NCBI RefSeq assembly: GCF_014905135.1
Contig: NZ_CP041406.1
Location: forward strand, 1,860,001 to 1,924,000
Reading direction: 5' to 3'
DNA: 64,000 nucleotides
From: Sulfurimonas paralvinellae
Lineage (GTDB): Bacteria > Campylobacterota > Campylobacteria > Campylobacterales > Sulfurimonadaceae
Made by a program: the position numbers and the translations under genes. Below the pieces are notes generated by a model. It searched no databases. It was not told the origin of the DNA and was given only the letters and a program-made list of their open reading frames with translations. This document shows, piece after piece, positions 23,661 through 48,515 of this stretch (within the stretch, counting starts at the first letter, position 1; each line of letters opens with the position of its first letter).

Positions 23661-23735
23661 GCGGGAATAGCTCAGTGGTAGAGCACAACCTTGCCAAGGT
23701 TGGGGTCGCGAGTTCGAACCTCGTTTCCCGCTCCA
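23661..23735 (+). tRNA. tRNA-Gly (GCC)
   Basis: GCGGGAA pairs with TTCCCGC to close the acceptor stem; the anticodon loop TTGCCAA gives GCC; the T-arm contains GTTCGAAC; CCA is encoded. First of four tRNAs transcribed together. Confidence 0.98.
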
Positions 23736-23768
23736 TTTAAAATTGAAACTGTTGAAAAACACCCATTT

Positions 23769-23855
23769 GCCCGGGTGGCGAAATCGGTAGACGCAGGGGA
23801 CTTAAAATCCCCCGGTAGCAATACTGTGCCGGTTCAAGTCCGGCCCCGGGCACCA
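23769..23855 (+). tRNA. tRNA-Leu (UAA)
   Basis: Acceptor GCCCGGG/CCCGGGC, anticodon loop CTTAAAA giving UAA, a long variable arm, T-loop GTTCAAGTC and encoded CCA: a class II tRNA of 87 bases. Confidence 0.98.
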
Positions 23856-23874
23856 CTGATAATAAACTGAAACT

Positions 23875-23948
23875 GGTGCCATCGCCAAGTGGTAAGGCCG
23901 CAGCCTGCAAAGCTGCTATCCCCAGTTCAAATCTGGGTGGCACCTCCA
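23875..23948 (+). tRNA. tRNA-Cys (GCA)
   Basis: Acceptor GGTGCCA/TGGCACC, anticodon loop CTGCAAA giving GCA, discriminator T with encoded CCA, 74 bases. Confidence 0.97.
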
Positions 23949-23975
23949 GTTTTATAATCAAACTACAACAAACGT

Positions 23976-24064
23976 GGATCTTTGGCAGAGTTGGTCGAAT
24001 GCACCGGTCTTGAAAACCGGCGAGGGTCATACCTCCCAGGGTTCGAATCCCTGAGGGTCCACCA
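23976..24064 (+). tRNA. tRNA-Ser (UGA)
   Basis: Acceptor GGATCTT pairs with AGGGTCC (two G-T pairs), anticodon loop CTTGAAA gives UGA, the variable arm is long as in class II tRNAs, and ACCA ends the gene. Last of the cluster; the following 210-base spacer to 24275 shows only an AT-rich promoter with TATACT near 24208. Confidence 0.97.
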
Positions 24065-24274
24065 CTTCTTTATAATACAATCCTTTACAAACCACTATAA
24101 TAACGAGATTTCAAGAGATTTACTCTCGCCAATTCAAATAGACAAACAATCAAAAAGTTATTAGCTGCCAAAAATAAAAAAAAGCACAAACAAAAGCCAA
24201 TATGCTATACTTCATTACGAAAAAGTACAGAATTTAACTCCACAGATAAATATACATACTAAAGGAAAATAAAA

Positions 24275-24811
24275 ATGGCACATATAAAATTACCGGAATT
24301 TGAAGAAATGACTCCTGCAATTCAAGATAAAGCAAGACCTATTTTAGAAAAAACAGGAAAACTTGGTGATATATTTAAACTCTTAGCGTTAGATGAAAAA
24401 ATCTATTTTGCTACAGATGGGATGATACAAAAATATCTCCTTGATGAAACAACGCTTTCTTATGATATAAAAGAAGCTATTGCACTGCTTATCTCCAAGG
24501 AGAATGGCTGTAAAATGTGTGTAGATGTCCATAAAAGTATTGCTAAAATGCTTGGTTTAAGTGAAGAAAAAATTGAAGAGATACTTCAAGGTATAGACTC
24601 AATGAATGTAGATACTAAAGATAAAGCACTTTTAAACTTTTGTATCAAAGCATCAGGAAAAGAAAATTATAAAATCTTAAAAGAGGAAATAGATTCATTA
24701 AAACAAATGGGATGGTCCGATGTTCAAATTGTAGAAGCTGTAGCAATTACTGGTTATTTTAACTATATCAATACACTCTCAAATGTATTTGGATTAGGAC
24801 ATAGTAATTAA
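24275..24811 (+). CDS. AhpD-like / carboxymuconolactone decarboxylase-family protein
   Basis: A 178-residue all-helical protein of the CMD/AhpD superfamily. The defining redox pair is in ENGCKMCVDVHKSIAKMLGLSEEKI at about 75-99, where the CxxC is followed by the conserved histidine four residues after the second cysteine, as in AhpD-type peroxidase reductants. A role in peroxide or thiol redox defence is the family expectation; the partner is unknown. The adjacent thioredoxin-like gene 40 bases downstream strengthens a redox reading. Confidence 0.8.
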   Translation: MAHIKLPEFEEMTPAIQDKARPILEKTGKLGDIFKLLALDEKIYFATDGMIQKYLLDETTLSYDIKEAIALLISKENGCKMCVDVHKSIAKMLGLSEEKIEEILQGIDSMNVDTKDKALLNFCIKASGKENYKILKEEIDSLKQMGWSDVQIVEAVAITGYFNYINTLSNVFGLGHSN

Positions 24812-24851
24812 GAATTATTCTATATAATTCAAGCAAAGACAAAGGAATATA

Positions 24852-25283
24852 ATGAAAAAACTAATTTTACTGCTACTGACTACACTTACACTTTTTGGAG
24901 CAAATGCCAAAGATGCGGCATTTTTGCTTGACTATGAGGAAGTTTATGGCACGGCACTTTCCAAGGCGAAAAAAGAGCATAAAGTGCTTATGATGGTAAT
25001 AGTCAAAGAACCTTGTCCTTACTGCGACAAACTTGTTGAAAATACGCTCGACACTCCAACCATAAAAGCAAAACTCAAAAACTTTGTACCGCTTGTCATA
25101 GCACATGATAGAAAATACCCAGATAGATTCAGACCACCGGTAAGACCTGTAACGCTTTTCATCAATCCTGATAACGAGACGGTTTTAAAAACTCTTGCCG
25201 GTTATAGAAATGTAGATGTATTTGCAGGTGCTATGAATGCAGCCTTTCAAAAATATAAAAAACAATACAAAGCAAAATTTTAA
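24852..25283 (+). CDS. Periplasmic thioredoxin-like protein
   Basis: A 143-residue exported thioredoxin-fold protein: signal MKKLILLLLTTLTLFGANA (cleaved at about 19), active site EPCPYCDKL at about 52-60 (CPYC), and the cis-proline loop in PPVRPVTLFINP at about 93-104. It resembles the SoxW/DsbD-C-terminal-like thioredoxins that keep periplasmic thiols reduced in sulfur-oxidising bacteria; which protein it serves is not known. Confidence 0.82.
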   Translation: MKKLILLLLTTLTLFGANAKDAAFLLDYEEVYGTALSKAKKEHKVLMMVIVKEPCPYCDKLVENTLDTPTIKAKLKNFVPLVIAHDRKYPDRFRPPVRPVTLFINPDNETVLKTLAGYRNVDVFAGAMNAAFQKYKKQYKAKF

Positions 25284-25321
25284 CTTTTATATAATATCAT
25301 TGCATTTCATGAATAAATCAT

Positions 25322-25397
25322 GGGGCATTAGCTCAGCTGGGAGAGCGCTTCGCTGGCAGCGAAGAGGTCAGCGGTTCGATCCCGCTATGCTCCACCA
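25322..25397 (+). tRNA. tRNA-Ala (GGC)
   Basis: Acceptor GGGGCAT/ATGCTCC, with the usual G3-T pair identity element of tRNA-Ala at G3-T70, anticodon loop CTGGCAG giving GGC, T-loop GTTCGAT, and encoded CCA. Confidence 0.97.
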
Positions 25398-36330: not shown

Positions 36331-36438
36331 CGCTTCTCTTTAGACCTGTGCAATGGGTTTGTGAGTTAACGTGTCAGGGTAGGAATACAGCAGCACGACT
36401 TACTTGCTCATGTGCCGCAGCCATCTGGAGGGGAGCAC
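36331..36438 (+). ncRNA. ffs: Signal recognition particle 4.5S-type RNA
   Basis: The conserved apical domain is seen as GTCAGGGTAGGAATACAGCAG (here cited in part: GTCAGG, then GGAA, then CAGCAG), the Ffh M-domain binding site with its asymmetric loop. The ends GCTTCTC (36332-36338) and GAGGGGAGC-type 3' bases (to 36436) can pair over seven positions with wobbles, closing a hairpin of about 105 bases. A -10 box lies just upstream. Exact ends are estimates. Confidence 0.88.
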
Positions 36439-45595: not shown

Positions 45596-46029
45596 ACCTC
45601 GAGCTTTTCAATGCTCACGCCGTTGTCTTTAAGAAACTTTGAGACAACTTCGGAGTGGGTATGTTCATACTCTTTTAAAAAGACGATACGTTTAATACCA
45701 GAAGCGATAAGATTTTTGCTGCACTCACTACACGGCTCGAGTGTCACATAGATCGTCGCACCCTCGATACTGATACCTTTACGTGCCGCCCAGATGATAG
45801 CATTCATCTCTGCATGGATCTCATAGGTCTTACTCCACTCATGATGCTCCGGCGTGTACTCATCATTCCAGTGTTCACAGCAGTTTACATAACCTGCAGG
45901 AGTCCCGTTGTAACCTGTTGAGAGAATACGACCGTCTTTAACGATGACCGCTCCTACCTGCTTGGAGACACACTTCGAAGCCGATGCTATCTCGGAAGCG
46001 ATATTAATGAAGATCTTGTCGTTTATCAT
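45592..46029 (-). CDS. dCMP deaminase-family protein
   Basis: A 145-residue zinc-dependent deaminase. Zinc ligands are in IHAEMNAIIWAARKG (HAE) at about 71-85 and TLEPCSECSKNLIASG (PCxxC) at about 95-110. The N-terminal CVSKQVGAVIVKDGRILSTGYNG matches deoxycytidylate deaminases (ComEB type), which supply dUMP for thymidylate synthesis. It overlaps the SurA-like gene by 4 bases and ends against the convergent arsC-like gene. Confidence 0.92.
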   Translation of the reverse strand: MINDKIFINIASEIASASKCVSKQVGAVIVKDGRILSTGYNGTPAGYVNCCEHWNDEYTPEHHEWSKTYEIHAEMNAIIWAARKGISIEGATIYVTLEPCSECSKNLIASGIKRIVFLKEYEHTHSEVVSKFLKDNGVSIEKLEV

Positions 46030-46868
46030 GACTCTTCTGGCATTCTTATGATGTTGATGTCCGCATTGTCACGCAAACGCGCAAAATAATCACTCAAGAT
46101 AGCCTCACGCTTCTCTGACATAATCGCATTGACGATCTGTGGTCGTAGACTCTCCATATCGACATCCGCCGCCGAAGTTACCGACTTGACATAAAAGCTC
46201 ATAAAACCGCCTTTACCGTTTGGAACTATCGGAGTAAAACTGCCTACTTTCGTTTTTGAAAGCAAAGAGGCAAGTTCAGGAGAGATTCTGCCATATGGCA
46301 GTTCCTGTTCATTTGAAGCGATCTGTGGTGAATAGAACATAGGGTTGTCAACTTTCTCTTTTAAAAGGCTCTTCTCTTTTGAATCGTAAATAACAACAGA
46401 GAAAGATGCCGGATGCTTAAAATCATTTTTATGCAGTTCATAATAATCTTTTATCTCCTCTTCACCCGGTTCGCTCATAGAACTCATTGCAATGGCACTA
46501 TAAAGCTTCTGAGAGAGCAGTTTTTGTTTTATCTTCTCTTTGAGCTGCTCTGAACTCAGACCGTTCGACTCACGCACAGCATCGTAAAATTCACTGATAC
46601 TCATGTTGTTACGTGCTGCCATTTGTTTTATGTCAGCATAAACTTCTGCGGAAGTTACATCGATTTTTCTCTTTTTAACCTCAAGACTCTCCAGCTTTTT
46701 ACGGATCAAAATATCGACAGCCTTTTTCGCATCGACTCTATCTGTCTGCATCTCTTTTTTTATATCCAAAAGCGTTATCGCCTTATCTTCAACCACGACA
46801 GCCACACCGTCATATACTTTCGCTTCCAGAGCCGCCGTTAATAAAAGTGCCAAAATTATTTTATACAT
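46026..46868 (-). CDS. SurA-like periplasmic chaperone / peptidyl-prolyl isomerase
   Basis: About 280 residues from ATG 46868 (a start at 46883 adds five residues; both have weak ribosome sites). A signal peptide (MYKIILALLLTAALEA) is followed by a SurA N-terminal helical domain (VYDGVAVVVEDKAITLLDIKKEM, cited in part) and a divergent parvulin-like segment. It would guide outer-membrane proteins across the periplasm. It is preceded by the structured leader element at 46893-46969 and is divergent from gltX. Confidence 0.8.
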   Translation of the reverse strand: MYKIILALLLTAALEAKVYDGVAVVVEDKAITLLDIKKEMQTDRVDAKKAVDILIRKKLESLEVKKRKIDVTSAEVYADIKQMAARNNMSISEFYDAVRESNGLSSEQLKEKIKQKLLSQKLYSAIAMSSMSEPGEEEIKDYYELHKNDFKHPASFSVVIYDSKEKSLLKEKVDNPMFYSPQIASNEQELPYGRISPELASLLSKTKVGSFTPIVPNGKGGFMSFYVKSVTSAADVDMESLRPQIVNAIMSEKREAILSDYFARLRDNADINIIRMPEES

Positions 46869-46892
46869 CCATATTCCATTCATTACTTTGTT

Positions 46893-46969
46893 AATATTTT
46901 TGGCAGTATGTTTTTGAGGCTCAGAGCGCAGGGAGGATTTGTCCTCTAAAATAGACTGCCAAAAATATT
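46893..46969 (-). ncRNA. Structured leader element E1 upstream of the SurA-like gene
   Basis: Perfect 15-bp closing stem AATATTTTTGGCAGT (46893-46907) with ACTGCCAAAAATATT (46955-46969). Inside, read on the minus strand, are TTAGAGGACAAATCCTCCC (hairpin GAGGA-CAAA-TCCTC) and a small GCTC/GAGC hairpin followed by CTCA. A minus-strand -10 TAAAAT at 46977-46982 puts the transcription start at the first base of the stem. The interior core is shared with the element at 47020 but the closing stem has a different sequence. Confidence 0.6.
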
Positions 46970-46976
46970 TTCCAAT

Positions 46977-47011
46977 ATTTTACCAACCTTTAACCAACAA
47001 TTGCCTAAAAT
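46977..47011. promoter_or_regulatory. Divergent promoters for the SurA-like gene and gltX
   Basis: A minus-strand -10 TAAAAT lies at 46977-46982 and a plus-strand -10 TAAAAT at 47006-47011, each about 8-9 bases before the start of its structured element. No convincing -35 boxes. Confidence 0.45.
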
Positions 47012-47019
47012 TACGTGAA

Positions 47020-47095
47020 ACTTCTTACATAAGCTTAGCTTAGAGGACAAATCCTCCCTGGCTCACGAGCCTCACACTAACCTTATGTAAGAAGT
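47020..47095 (+). ncRNA. Structured leader element E2 upstream of gltX
   Basis: Perfect 14-bp closing stem ACTTCTTACATAAG (47020-47033) with CTTATGTAAGAAGT (47082-47095), extended by TTAG/CTAA after one mismatch. The core TTAGAGGACAAATCCTCCCTG (21 bases, 47040-47060, cited here without its last bases elsewhere) is identical to that in E1, followed by GGCT-CACG-AGCC and CTCA. It ends 15 bases before the AAGG ribosome site of gltX. The layout is a three-way junction with one variable and two conserved helices. Confidence 0.6.
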
Positions 47096-47120: not shown

Positions 47121-48515
47121 ATGGTTGTCACACGTTTCGCACCTTCTCCTACAGGATACCTGCATATCGGCGGTTTAAGAACAGCGCTCTTCTCTTACCT
47201 CTGGGCAAGAACAAACAACGGAAAATTCGTTCTTCGTATCGAAGATACAGACAAAAAAAGAAATTCCGAAGAAGCAACCGAAGCGATTCTCAAAGCCTTT
47301 GACTGGCTCGGACTCGAAGCTGACGGAGAGGTCACCTACCAAAGTAAACGTGACAATATCTATGCCAAGTACATCCAACAGCTTCTCGATGAAGGCAAAG
47401 CCTATAAATGCTACATGTCAAAAGAGGAACTCGATGCTTTGCGTGAGGAGCAGATGGCAAATAAACAGCGTGCAAAATATGACGGGCGATACCGCGATTT
47501 TGACGGGACACCGCCTGAGGGTATCGAGCCTGTTATCCGTATTAAAGCACCGACTTCGGGTGAGATCGTCGTGCATGACGGCGTTAAGGGCGATGTTGTC
47601 TTTCAAGCCGAAGACATTTTGGATGATTTTGTCATCGCCAGAGCTGACGGCAGCCCGACGTACAACTTTGTCGTTGCCATCGATGATGCACTCATGGGCA
47701 TTAACGAGGTCATCCGCGGAGACGACCACCTCTCAAACACTCCAAAGCAGATAGTCGTCTATGAAGCACTCGGTTTTGAGATTCCGAAATTTTACCATGT
47801 TCCTATGATTCACAATCAACAGGGCAAAAAACTCTCAAAACGTGACGGTGCAACTGATGTTATGGCCTACAAAGAGATGGGATATCTTCCAGAAGCACTG
47901 CTGAACTTCTTAGTGCGTCTTGGCTGGAGTCACGGCGATCAGGAGATATTTTCCCTGCAAGAGATGAAAGAGCTGTTCGATCCAAAAGACATCAATAAAT
48001 CAGCTTCCATCTATAATACTGAAAAGCTCGACTGGCTCAATGCCCACTACATAAAAAACAGCTCAAACGAAAGACTCACCGAACTGTTGAGCGACTTTGG
48101 CGTTATGCTGAGCTCACACGATAAAAAAGAGATTATTCTCGATGCGCTTAAAGAGCGGGCAAAAACACTCAAAGAACTCGCTGAACTTATCAATGAGATC
48201 ATCGTAGCACCTACTGAGTATGATCCTAAAGCCGTCAAAAAAGCTTTCAAAGGCAATGCTGTCGAAGTACTTGAAACCTTTGCAAACAGACTTGAAGAAG
48301 CGAATGAACTGCACCTGCCAAGTGATTACCATCACATCATGGAAAAGGTTGTTGAAGAGATGGAGATAGGTTTTGGTAAGATCGGCCAACCTCTGCGTGT
48401 CGCCCTGCTTGGAAAGCTCAGCGGTCCCGGCCTTGATGTGGTCATGAGTGTCCTTGGAAAAGATGAAACACTCGATCGCATTGCAAAAGCGATTCTTGCC
48501 AACATCAACGAGTAA
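47121..48515 (+). CDS. gltX: Glutamyl-tRNA synthetase
   Basis: A 464-residue class I synthetase. The HIGH-type motif is in RFAPSPTGYLHIGGLRTALF (about 5-24), and the KMSKS-type loop is KKLSKRDGATDV at about 236-247. Length and motifs match bacterial GltX; many Campylobacterota carry two copies, one with relaxed tRNA-Gln specificity, and this window does not show which one it is. The transcript carries the structured leader E2 immediately upstream. Confidence 0.96.
   Translation: MVVTRFAPSPTGYLHIGGLRTALFSYLWARTNNGKFVLRIEDTDKKRNSEEATEAILKAFDWLGLEADGEVTYQSKRDNIYAKYIQQLLDEGKAYKCYMSKEELDALREEQMANKQRAKYDGRYRDFDGTPPEGIEPVIRIKAPTSGEIVVHDGVKGDVVFQAEDILDDFVIARADGSPTYNFVVAIDDALMGINEVIRGDDHLSNTPKQIVVYEALGFEIPKFYHVPMIHNQQGKKLSKRDGATDVMAYKEMGYLPEALLNFLVRLGWSHGDQEIFSLQEMKELFDPKDINKSASIYNTEKLDWLNAHYIKNSSNERLTELLSDFGVMLSSHDKKEIILDALKERAKTLKELAELINEIIVAPTEYDPKAVKKAFKGNAVEVLETFANRLEEANELHLPSDYHHIMEKVVEEMEIGFGKIGQPLRVALLGKLSGPGLDVVMSVLGKDETLDRIAKAILANINE

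Follow-up and report, generated by a model that had tools for sequence, protein, structure and literature searches.

Hairpins with a near-invariant bulged core and sequence-free stems in gene leaders of Sulfurimonas and other Campylobacterota

The divergent promoter region between a gene for a SurA-like peptidyl-prolyl isomerase and gltX in Sulfurimonas paralvinellae holds two elements that face away from each other, and the question raised by this locus is whether they are structured leader RNAs, plain mRNA-stabilising structures, or members of a palindromic repeat family, as an earlier note made from the sequence alone had variously proposed. The window, i.e., the whole stretch of DNA that was analysed, comprises 64,000 nt of contig NZ_CP041406.1 (positions 1,860,001 to 1,924,000).

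Two hairpins between the SurA-like gene and gltX

The features of the locus, in window coordinates, are:

46026..46883, minus strand: gene of a SurA-like peptidyl-prolyl isomerase (PF13624, SurA_N_3, and PF13145, Rotamase_2, above cut-offs)
46893..46969, minus strand: element A, whole hairpin, SurA-like side (match to covariance model R2 at 1906893-1906969, 78 bits, E 2.2e-15)
46893..46916, minus strand: 3' arm of element A (sequence, pairing columns)
46917..46945, minus strand: core of element A, AGGACAAATCCTCCCTGCGCTCTGAGCCT (comparison of copies)
46946..46969, minus strand: 5' arm of element A, AATATTTTTGGCAGTCTATTTTAG (sequence, pairing columns)
46977..46982, minus strand: TAAAAT, -10-like box of the SurA-like gene (sequence; alignment)
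47006..47011, plus strand: TAAAAT, -10-like box of gltX (sequence; alignment by eye)
47020..47095, plus strand: element B, whole hairpin, gltX side (match to covariance model R2 at 1907020-1907095, 53.7 bits, E 3.5e-9)
47020..47043, plus strand: 5' arm of element B, ACTTCTTACATAAGCTTAGCTTAG (sequence)
47044..47072, plus strand: core of element B, AGGACAAATCCTCCCTGGCTCACGAGCCT, its apical hairpin being the variant GGCTCACGAGCC (comparison of copies)
47073..47095, plus strand: 3' arm of element B (sequence)
47121..48515, plus strand: gltX, glutamate--tRNA ligase (TIGR00464, E 1.9e-176)

The description of the twins in the earlier note holds in full: the outer stems are without mismatch (AATATTTTTGGCAGT/ACTGCCAAAAATATT, 15 bp; ACTTCTTACATAAG/CTTATGTAAGAAGT, 14 bp) and unrelated in sequence, 21 bases of the interior (TTAGAGGACAAATCCTCCCTG) are identical, and profile searches confirmed both downstream genes. 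An 18-mer of the core has 2 exact matches in the window against 0.02 expected by chance (3 mismatches allowed), and the RNA folding z-scores are -3.4 for element A and -6.8 for element B. In both, the TAAAAT box lies 7-8 nt before the stem, and the box of gltX is kept in most of the sister genomes without the element (alignment by eye). The idea that transcripts start at the stem fits both window copies in this respect; no fixed distance to a -10 box was found across the family. By comparison with sister genomes, the SurA-like gene probably starts with the ATG at 46868 rather than at 46883, and its start would then be 24 nt from element A. The window also contains a bacterial small SRP RNA gene (36337-36434) and a tRNA gene cluster (23661-25394).

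Fold of the element

A covariance model (A3, R2) was made from 96 copies. One copy spans about 77 nt and consists of a stem of about 22-23 bp, sequence-free between copies, around a near-invariant bulged core; comparison of copies showed that only about 24 nt of core are common and that the arms differ at every site. Above the stem comes either an internal loop (3x3 or 3x2) or a fully paired stretch, and then an AGG/CCT helix (helix 2). Towards the tip, helix 2 is followed by a bulge of 7 nt (ACAAATC) and a CTC/GAG helix, and these in turn by a TCT bulge and a capped hairpin of 2 bp. In the 96-copy alignment 89% of the cells are paired, all 19 of the 19 outer-stem pairs have changed on both sides, and the covariation score is 0.63 (0.15 when shuffled, at most 0.21 in slid controls), so that the closing stems do covary, as had been expected of a structured RNA.

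The three-way junction assumed by the earlier note did not survive the comparison. Helix 2 is an invariant AGG/CCT in most copies and covaries in diverged ones (ACG/CGT, ATG/CAT, AAG/CTT, AGA/TCT), and the apical 2-bp helix covaries as well (CC/GG, GC/GC, CT/AG). In the copies ACGACAAATCC..GAGCGT, ATGACAAATCC..GAGCAT and AAGACAAATCC..GAGCTT the outer helix is intact and the GAGGA-CAAA-TCCTC hairpin is broken; the ACG, ATG and AAG copies pair helix 2 with the 3' side, which leaves a junction with a GAGGA/TCCTC hairpin unsupported. Since helix 2 and the apical helix covary, the element is read as a single hairpin with a 7-nt and a 3-nt bulge, and since the closing helix of about 22-23 bp plus AGG/CCT is present in all copies, the core is the apical bulged hairpin.

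Complementarity reaches several bases outward past the usual 23 bp or so in some copies (L174, L181, L182, L191, L194 in our numbering of loci). A weak common flank motif, CC directly before the stem and TA directly after it, together with a terminal G-C pair, is seen in Sulfurimonas copies such as L001 and L008-L012.

Distribution of the family

The 2.08-Mb source genome has 15 intact copies, elements A and B among them. By covariance model, four sister genomes carry 5-19 copies each and others none, and eight of 298 complete genomes of the class (three of 58 genera) were positive; about half of the genus carries the element (strict filters in these large searches, the absences being approximate). 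In a collection of 84,980 species, only Sulfurimonas, Sulfurospirillum, Sulfurovum and other Campylobacterota were among the matches listed for a strict core pattern. The same pattern, again under strict filters, had no match in 2.9 million viral contigs, and a phage or viral origin was rejected on this basis.

The 56 copies in five genomes score 45-86 bits, and below 45 bits nothing follows until reverse-strand echoes of at most 38 bits, i.e., these genomes are without decayed relics; near-identical fresh copies were not found among those of the source genome either. The missing relics point to selection on each copy, or to fast and clean loss of damaged ones.

Rfam gave no match at curated thresholds in the element region of the window or at 20 other loci (unrelated families match only below threshold), and a known Rfam family was therefore rejected for every copy checked. 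Searches of the open-access literature found no earlier description, and the letters of the core led to unrelated papers. We regard this family of free-living Sulfurimonas-type bacteria as undescribed, its copies being apparently kept intact; no described repeat or RNA family was found that joins an invariant head, an arbitrary stem of fixed length and recurrence before the same genes in different species.

Position and orientation relative to genes

Copies lie mostly 20-60 nt 5' of a start codon (ORFs were called mechanically, and single distances are rough). As the earlier note had anticipated for a leader RNA, they occupy 5' leaders or intercistronic gaps (105 of 206 are intercistronic, ‘++’), and 52 of the 57 copies in five near-complete genomes are sense to the downstream gene. 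The orientation classes are 68 ‘++’ and 29 ‘-+’ against 18 ‘--’ and 7 ‘+-’; wider mixed sets are 80-85% sense, with 27 of 206 copies clearly antisense, and in long divergent gaps the copy is mostly 24-37 nt from its sense gene. Nine copies on fork-opposing genes in the five genomes are sense to the gene all the same, and none there is sense to the fork but against the gene; an orientation set by replication was rejected, as orientation follows the gene. Positional signals of a promoter or terminator of the element's own were found on neither strand; the T/A counts 3' of the reverse complement, distorted by the ends of loci, were left out of account.

The target genes include, by profile searches, gltX, the SurA-like gene, a frdA/sdhA-type flavoprotein, mog, hemN, queD, formate dehydrogenase, a VTT/DedA-family protein and an FGGY kinase, to which glmM, thiG, ffh and ribE (named by eye from the sequence) are added. 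Orthologous genes carry the element across species, and no common function or pathway among the targets is evident.

Insertion and conservation in place

At gltX, three of 30 loci of the genus have a filled leader, and the element is missing from the other leaders that can be recognised; the SurA-like side is filled in the source genome only. The gltX leader has about 28 nt without the element and about 32 nt plus the whole element, arms included, when filled. The flanks thus equal the whole empty leader, and copying of the arms from the target at insertion was rejected at this site. No target-site duplication is evident at gltX; recurrent ACTTCTT..AAGAAGT ends occur in some copies, the arms not being common.

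Among 332 orthologous pairs, which are not independent of one another, identity is 0.90/0.87 in the core, 0.52 in the arms and 0.37/0.38 in the flanks. Some copies before the same gene have unrelated arms (e.g., at mog in the genomes G031 and G327), and replacement as well as descent has therefore to be assumed.

Pairing of the arms

In the stems of orthologues, 352 double Watson-Crick changes stand against 183 single breaks, compared to 103 double and 567 single changes at unpaired control positions. Isolated mismatches on the mRNA strand are A.C far more often than G.U (108 vs. 25, p 2e-13) and are concentrated 6-12 bp from the core (97 A.C, 23 C.T and 10 C.C vs. 12 G.T). Seen on the opposite strand they are G.U, G.A and G.G (145:33). 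The bias in antisense copies is weaker and not reversed (9:6, too few to decide). The opposite strand is the better-folding one in 187 of 206 copies, and folding of the mRNA strand is 5.4 kcal/mol less favourable than that of its complement. Compensations are of the transversion type about as often as of the transition type (66 vs. 61), and their occurrence in long tracts was rejected, adjacent changes (18) being barely above those in shuffles (13.6).

At two orthologous pairs of sites (L002/L121 and L070/L270) the core is inverted and the arms are conserved. Between L002:1478-1555 and L121, which lie in two Sulfurimonas species upstream of the gene of a small ribosomal-type protein, a core segment of about 36 nt is exactly inverted, with arms and outer flanks co-linear. 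In rRNA and microRNA hairpins, template switching in replication has been predicted and observed to cause multiple compensatory changes and to invert loops (PMC8794818); the present case differs in that a core of about 30 nt is inverted as one piece, at orthologous sites within a family of dispersed repeats. From the A.C excess, the weaker fold of the mRNA strand, the equality of transversion and transition types, the core inversions and this precedent, we infer that the complementarity of the arms is due in large part to DNA-level copying between them. Two causes may be considered for the preference for C-containing mismatches on the mRNA strand, namely selection acting on the opposite strand and selection that favours weaker mRNA hairpins. 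Strong covariation alone, then, need not mean RNA-level constraint, and the family offers many natural replicates for asking why long stems stay complementary, by RNA selection or by DNA-level copying.

Proposed function and alternative explanations

Tentatively, at a probability of about 0.45, we interpret the element as a leader hairpin module with a core that a putative trans-acting factor recognises. The invariant bulged core on the leader RNA would be read by this factor, most likely a protein, and this would adjust how stable the downstream cistron is or how well it is translated; selection on the core would keep each copy in place, and template switching would copy arm onto arm in the DNA and now and then flip the core. 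The sense position, the constraint on the core in place, the absence of relics, the covarying core structure, the compensation, the signs of DNA-level copying and the insertion of whole elements at gltX count for this interpretation; the A.C excess, the worse fold of the mRNA strand, the antisense copies, the patchy presence in class and genus, targets of no evident common function, and a search that found no partner protein count against it. If a core-binding factor exists, genes in this ecologically important group would be controlled at a level not known so far.

A wider version seems unlikely to us. In it, free-living Campylobacterota would have one leader module of global reach, through which a single putative factor reads the same bulged core before unrelated genes, a dozen or more in each genome; the stem could drift freely, as DNA replication would restore one arm from the other and could even flip the core, and the hairpin would be self-mending and possibly switchable.

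The main rival, which we consider possible though doubtful, is a selfish non-autonomous palindromic repeat (like MITEs, REPs or Rickettsia palindromic elements) that tolerates insertion into leaders, host selection merely removing badly placed or oriented copies and favouring weaker mRNA hairpins. Presence or absence of the whole element between sister species at gltX and the SurA-like gene, the patchy distribution with variable copy number, the orientation flips, and transcription of the weaker-folding strand with its A.C excess all speak for it, and the palindromic repeat family named in the earlier note is still to be taken seriously. Against it, Y1/RAYT transposase and reverse transcriptase, looked for as partner proteins, are both absent from the 15-copy source genome, fresh copies and relics are missing, the core is kept in place while the flanks saturate, and viral contigs gave no match. 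Rickettsia palindromic elements and bacterial MITEs have sequence in common along the whole element. Like them, the present copies are dispersed palindromic insertions of the order of 100 bp without a gene of their own, and filled and empty orthologous sites were found as in MITEs; unlike them, only the core is common and the copies have a preferred position before start codons. Like REP/BIME sequences with their RAYTs, the family consists of small intergenic palindromes, forms twins in opposite orientation and may have roles at the mRNA level. REPs have 20-40 bp of conserved sequence, one end of which carries a tag of the GTAG or CGTC type (PMC3733652), and usually occur in more than 100 copies (PMC2817692), whereas the present family has sequence-free arms, few copies per genome and no sequence-conserved palindrome with a GTAG/GGAG- or CGTC-type tag; PF01797 (Y1/RAYT transposase) also showed no pattern of co-occurrence with the element in the genus.

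That the functional strand is the opposite one (AGGCTCAGACC-NNNN-GGGAGGATTTGTCCT), acting as folded single-stranded DNA in recombination or as antisense leader RNA, is improbable. It would account for the better fold of that strand, for its G.U, G.A and G.G mismatches, mainly 6-12 bp from the core (97:12), and for a bias that is not reversed in antisense copies; yet that strand has no promoter or terminator signal that we could find, orientation follows the gene, and the bias weakens in antisense copies.

More improbable still is a plain 5' stem that protects the mRNA from 5'-to-3' decay, its core having no specific role. Such a stem would sit, as here, at the start of both window leaders, and would form in either orientation, so that flips would be harmless; against it, conservation of the core far exceeds that of the arms, and many copies are intercistronic. 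Moreover, selection for an mRNA stem would give more G.U than A.C on the sense strand, and the reverse is seen, which weakens this explanation.

A leader module read through its core shares with Rfam riboswitches and protein-binding leaders a covarying stem, a conserved bulged core and the leader position, and both covariation beyond the controls and a consistent sense position were found; unlike Rfam cis-regulatory RNAs, it has many unrelated targets, its orientation is not strict, and G.U is not favoured over A.C on the transcribed strand. The earlier suggestion of a new cis-regulatory RNA or mRNA-stabilising 5' structure has support from leader position and covariation; as regards a plain mRNA-stabilising stem it is weakened by the A.C excess and the weaker-folding mRNA strand. 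A ligand-binding riboswitch, which a conserved bulged core within covarying stems in leaders might suggest, is hardly credible with targets of no common pathway, no Rfam match and both orientations tolerated.

Paired copies and reading frames through the element

Twins in opposite orientation, about 75-140 bp apart, occur elsewhere (G031:C1:688806/688914, G009:C1:971393/971466, G327:C1:429382/429466, L126, L141, L171 and L188); most are convergent, and the window pair and L188 are divergent, each copy being sense to its own gene. At L288, L313, L076 and similar loci, mechanically called ORFs run through the element and give the spurious peptides RTNPPxGLSL or RLRPTGGFVL, which may stand in annotations as false N-terminal extensions.
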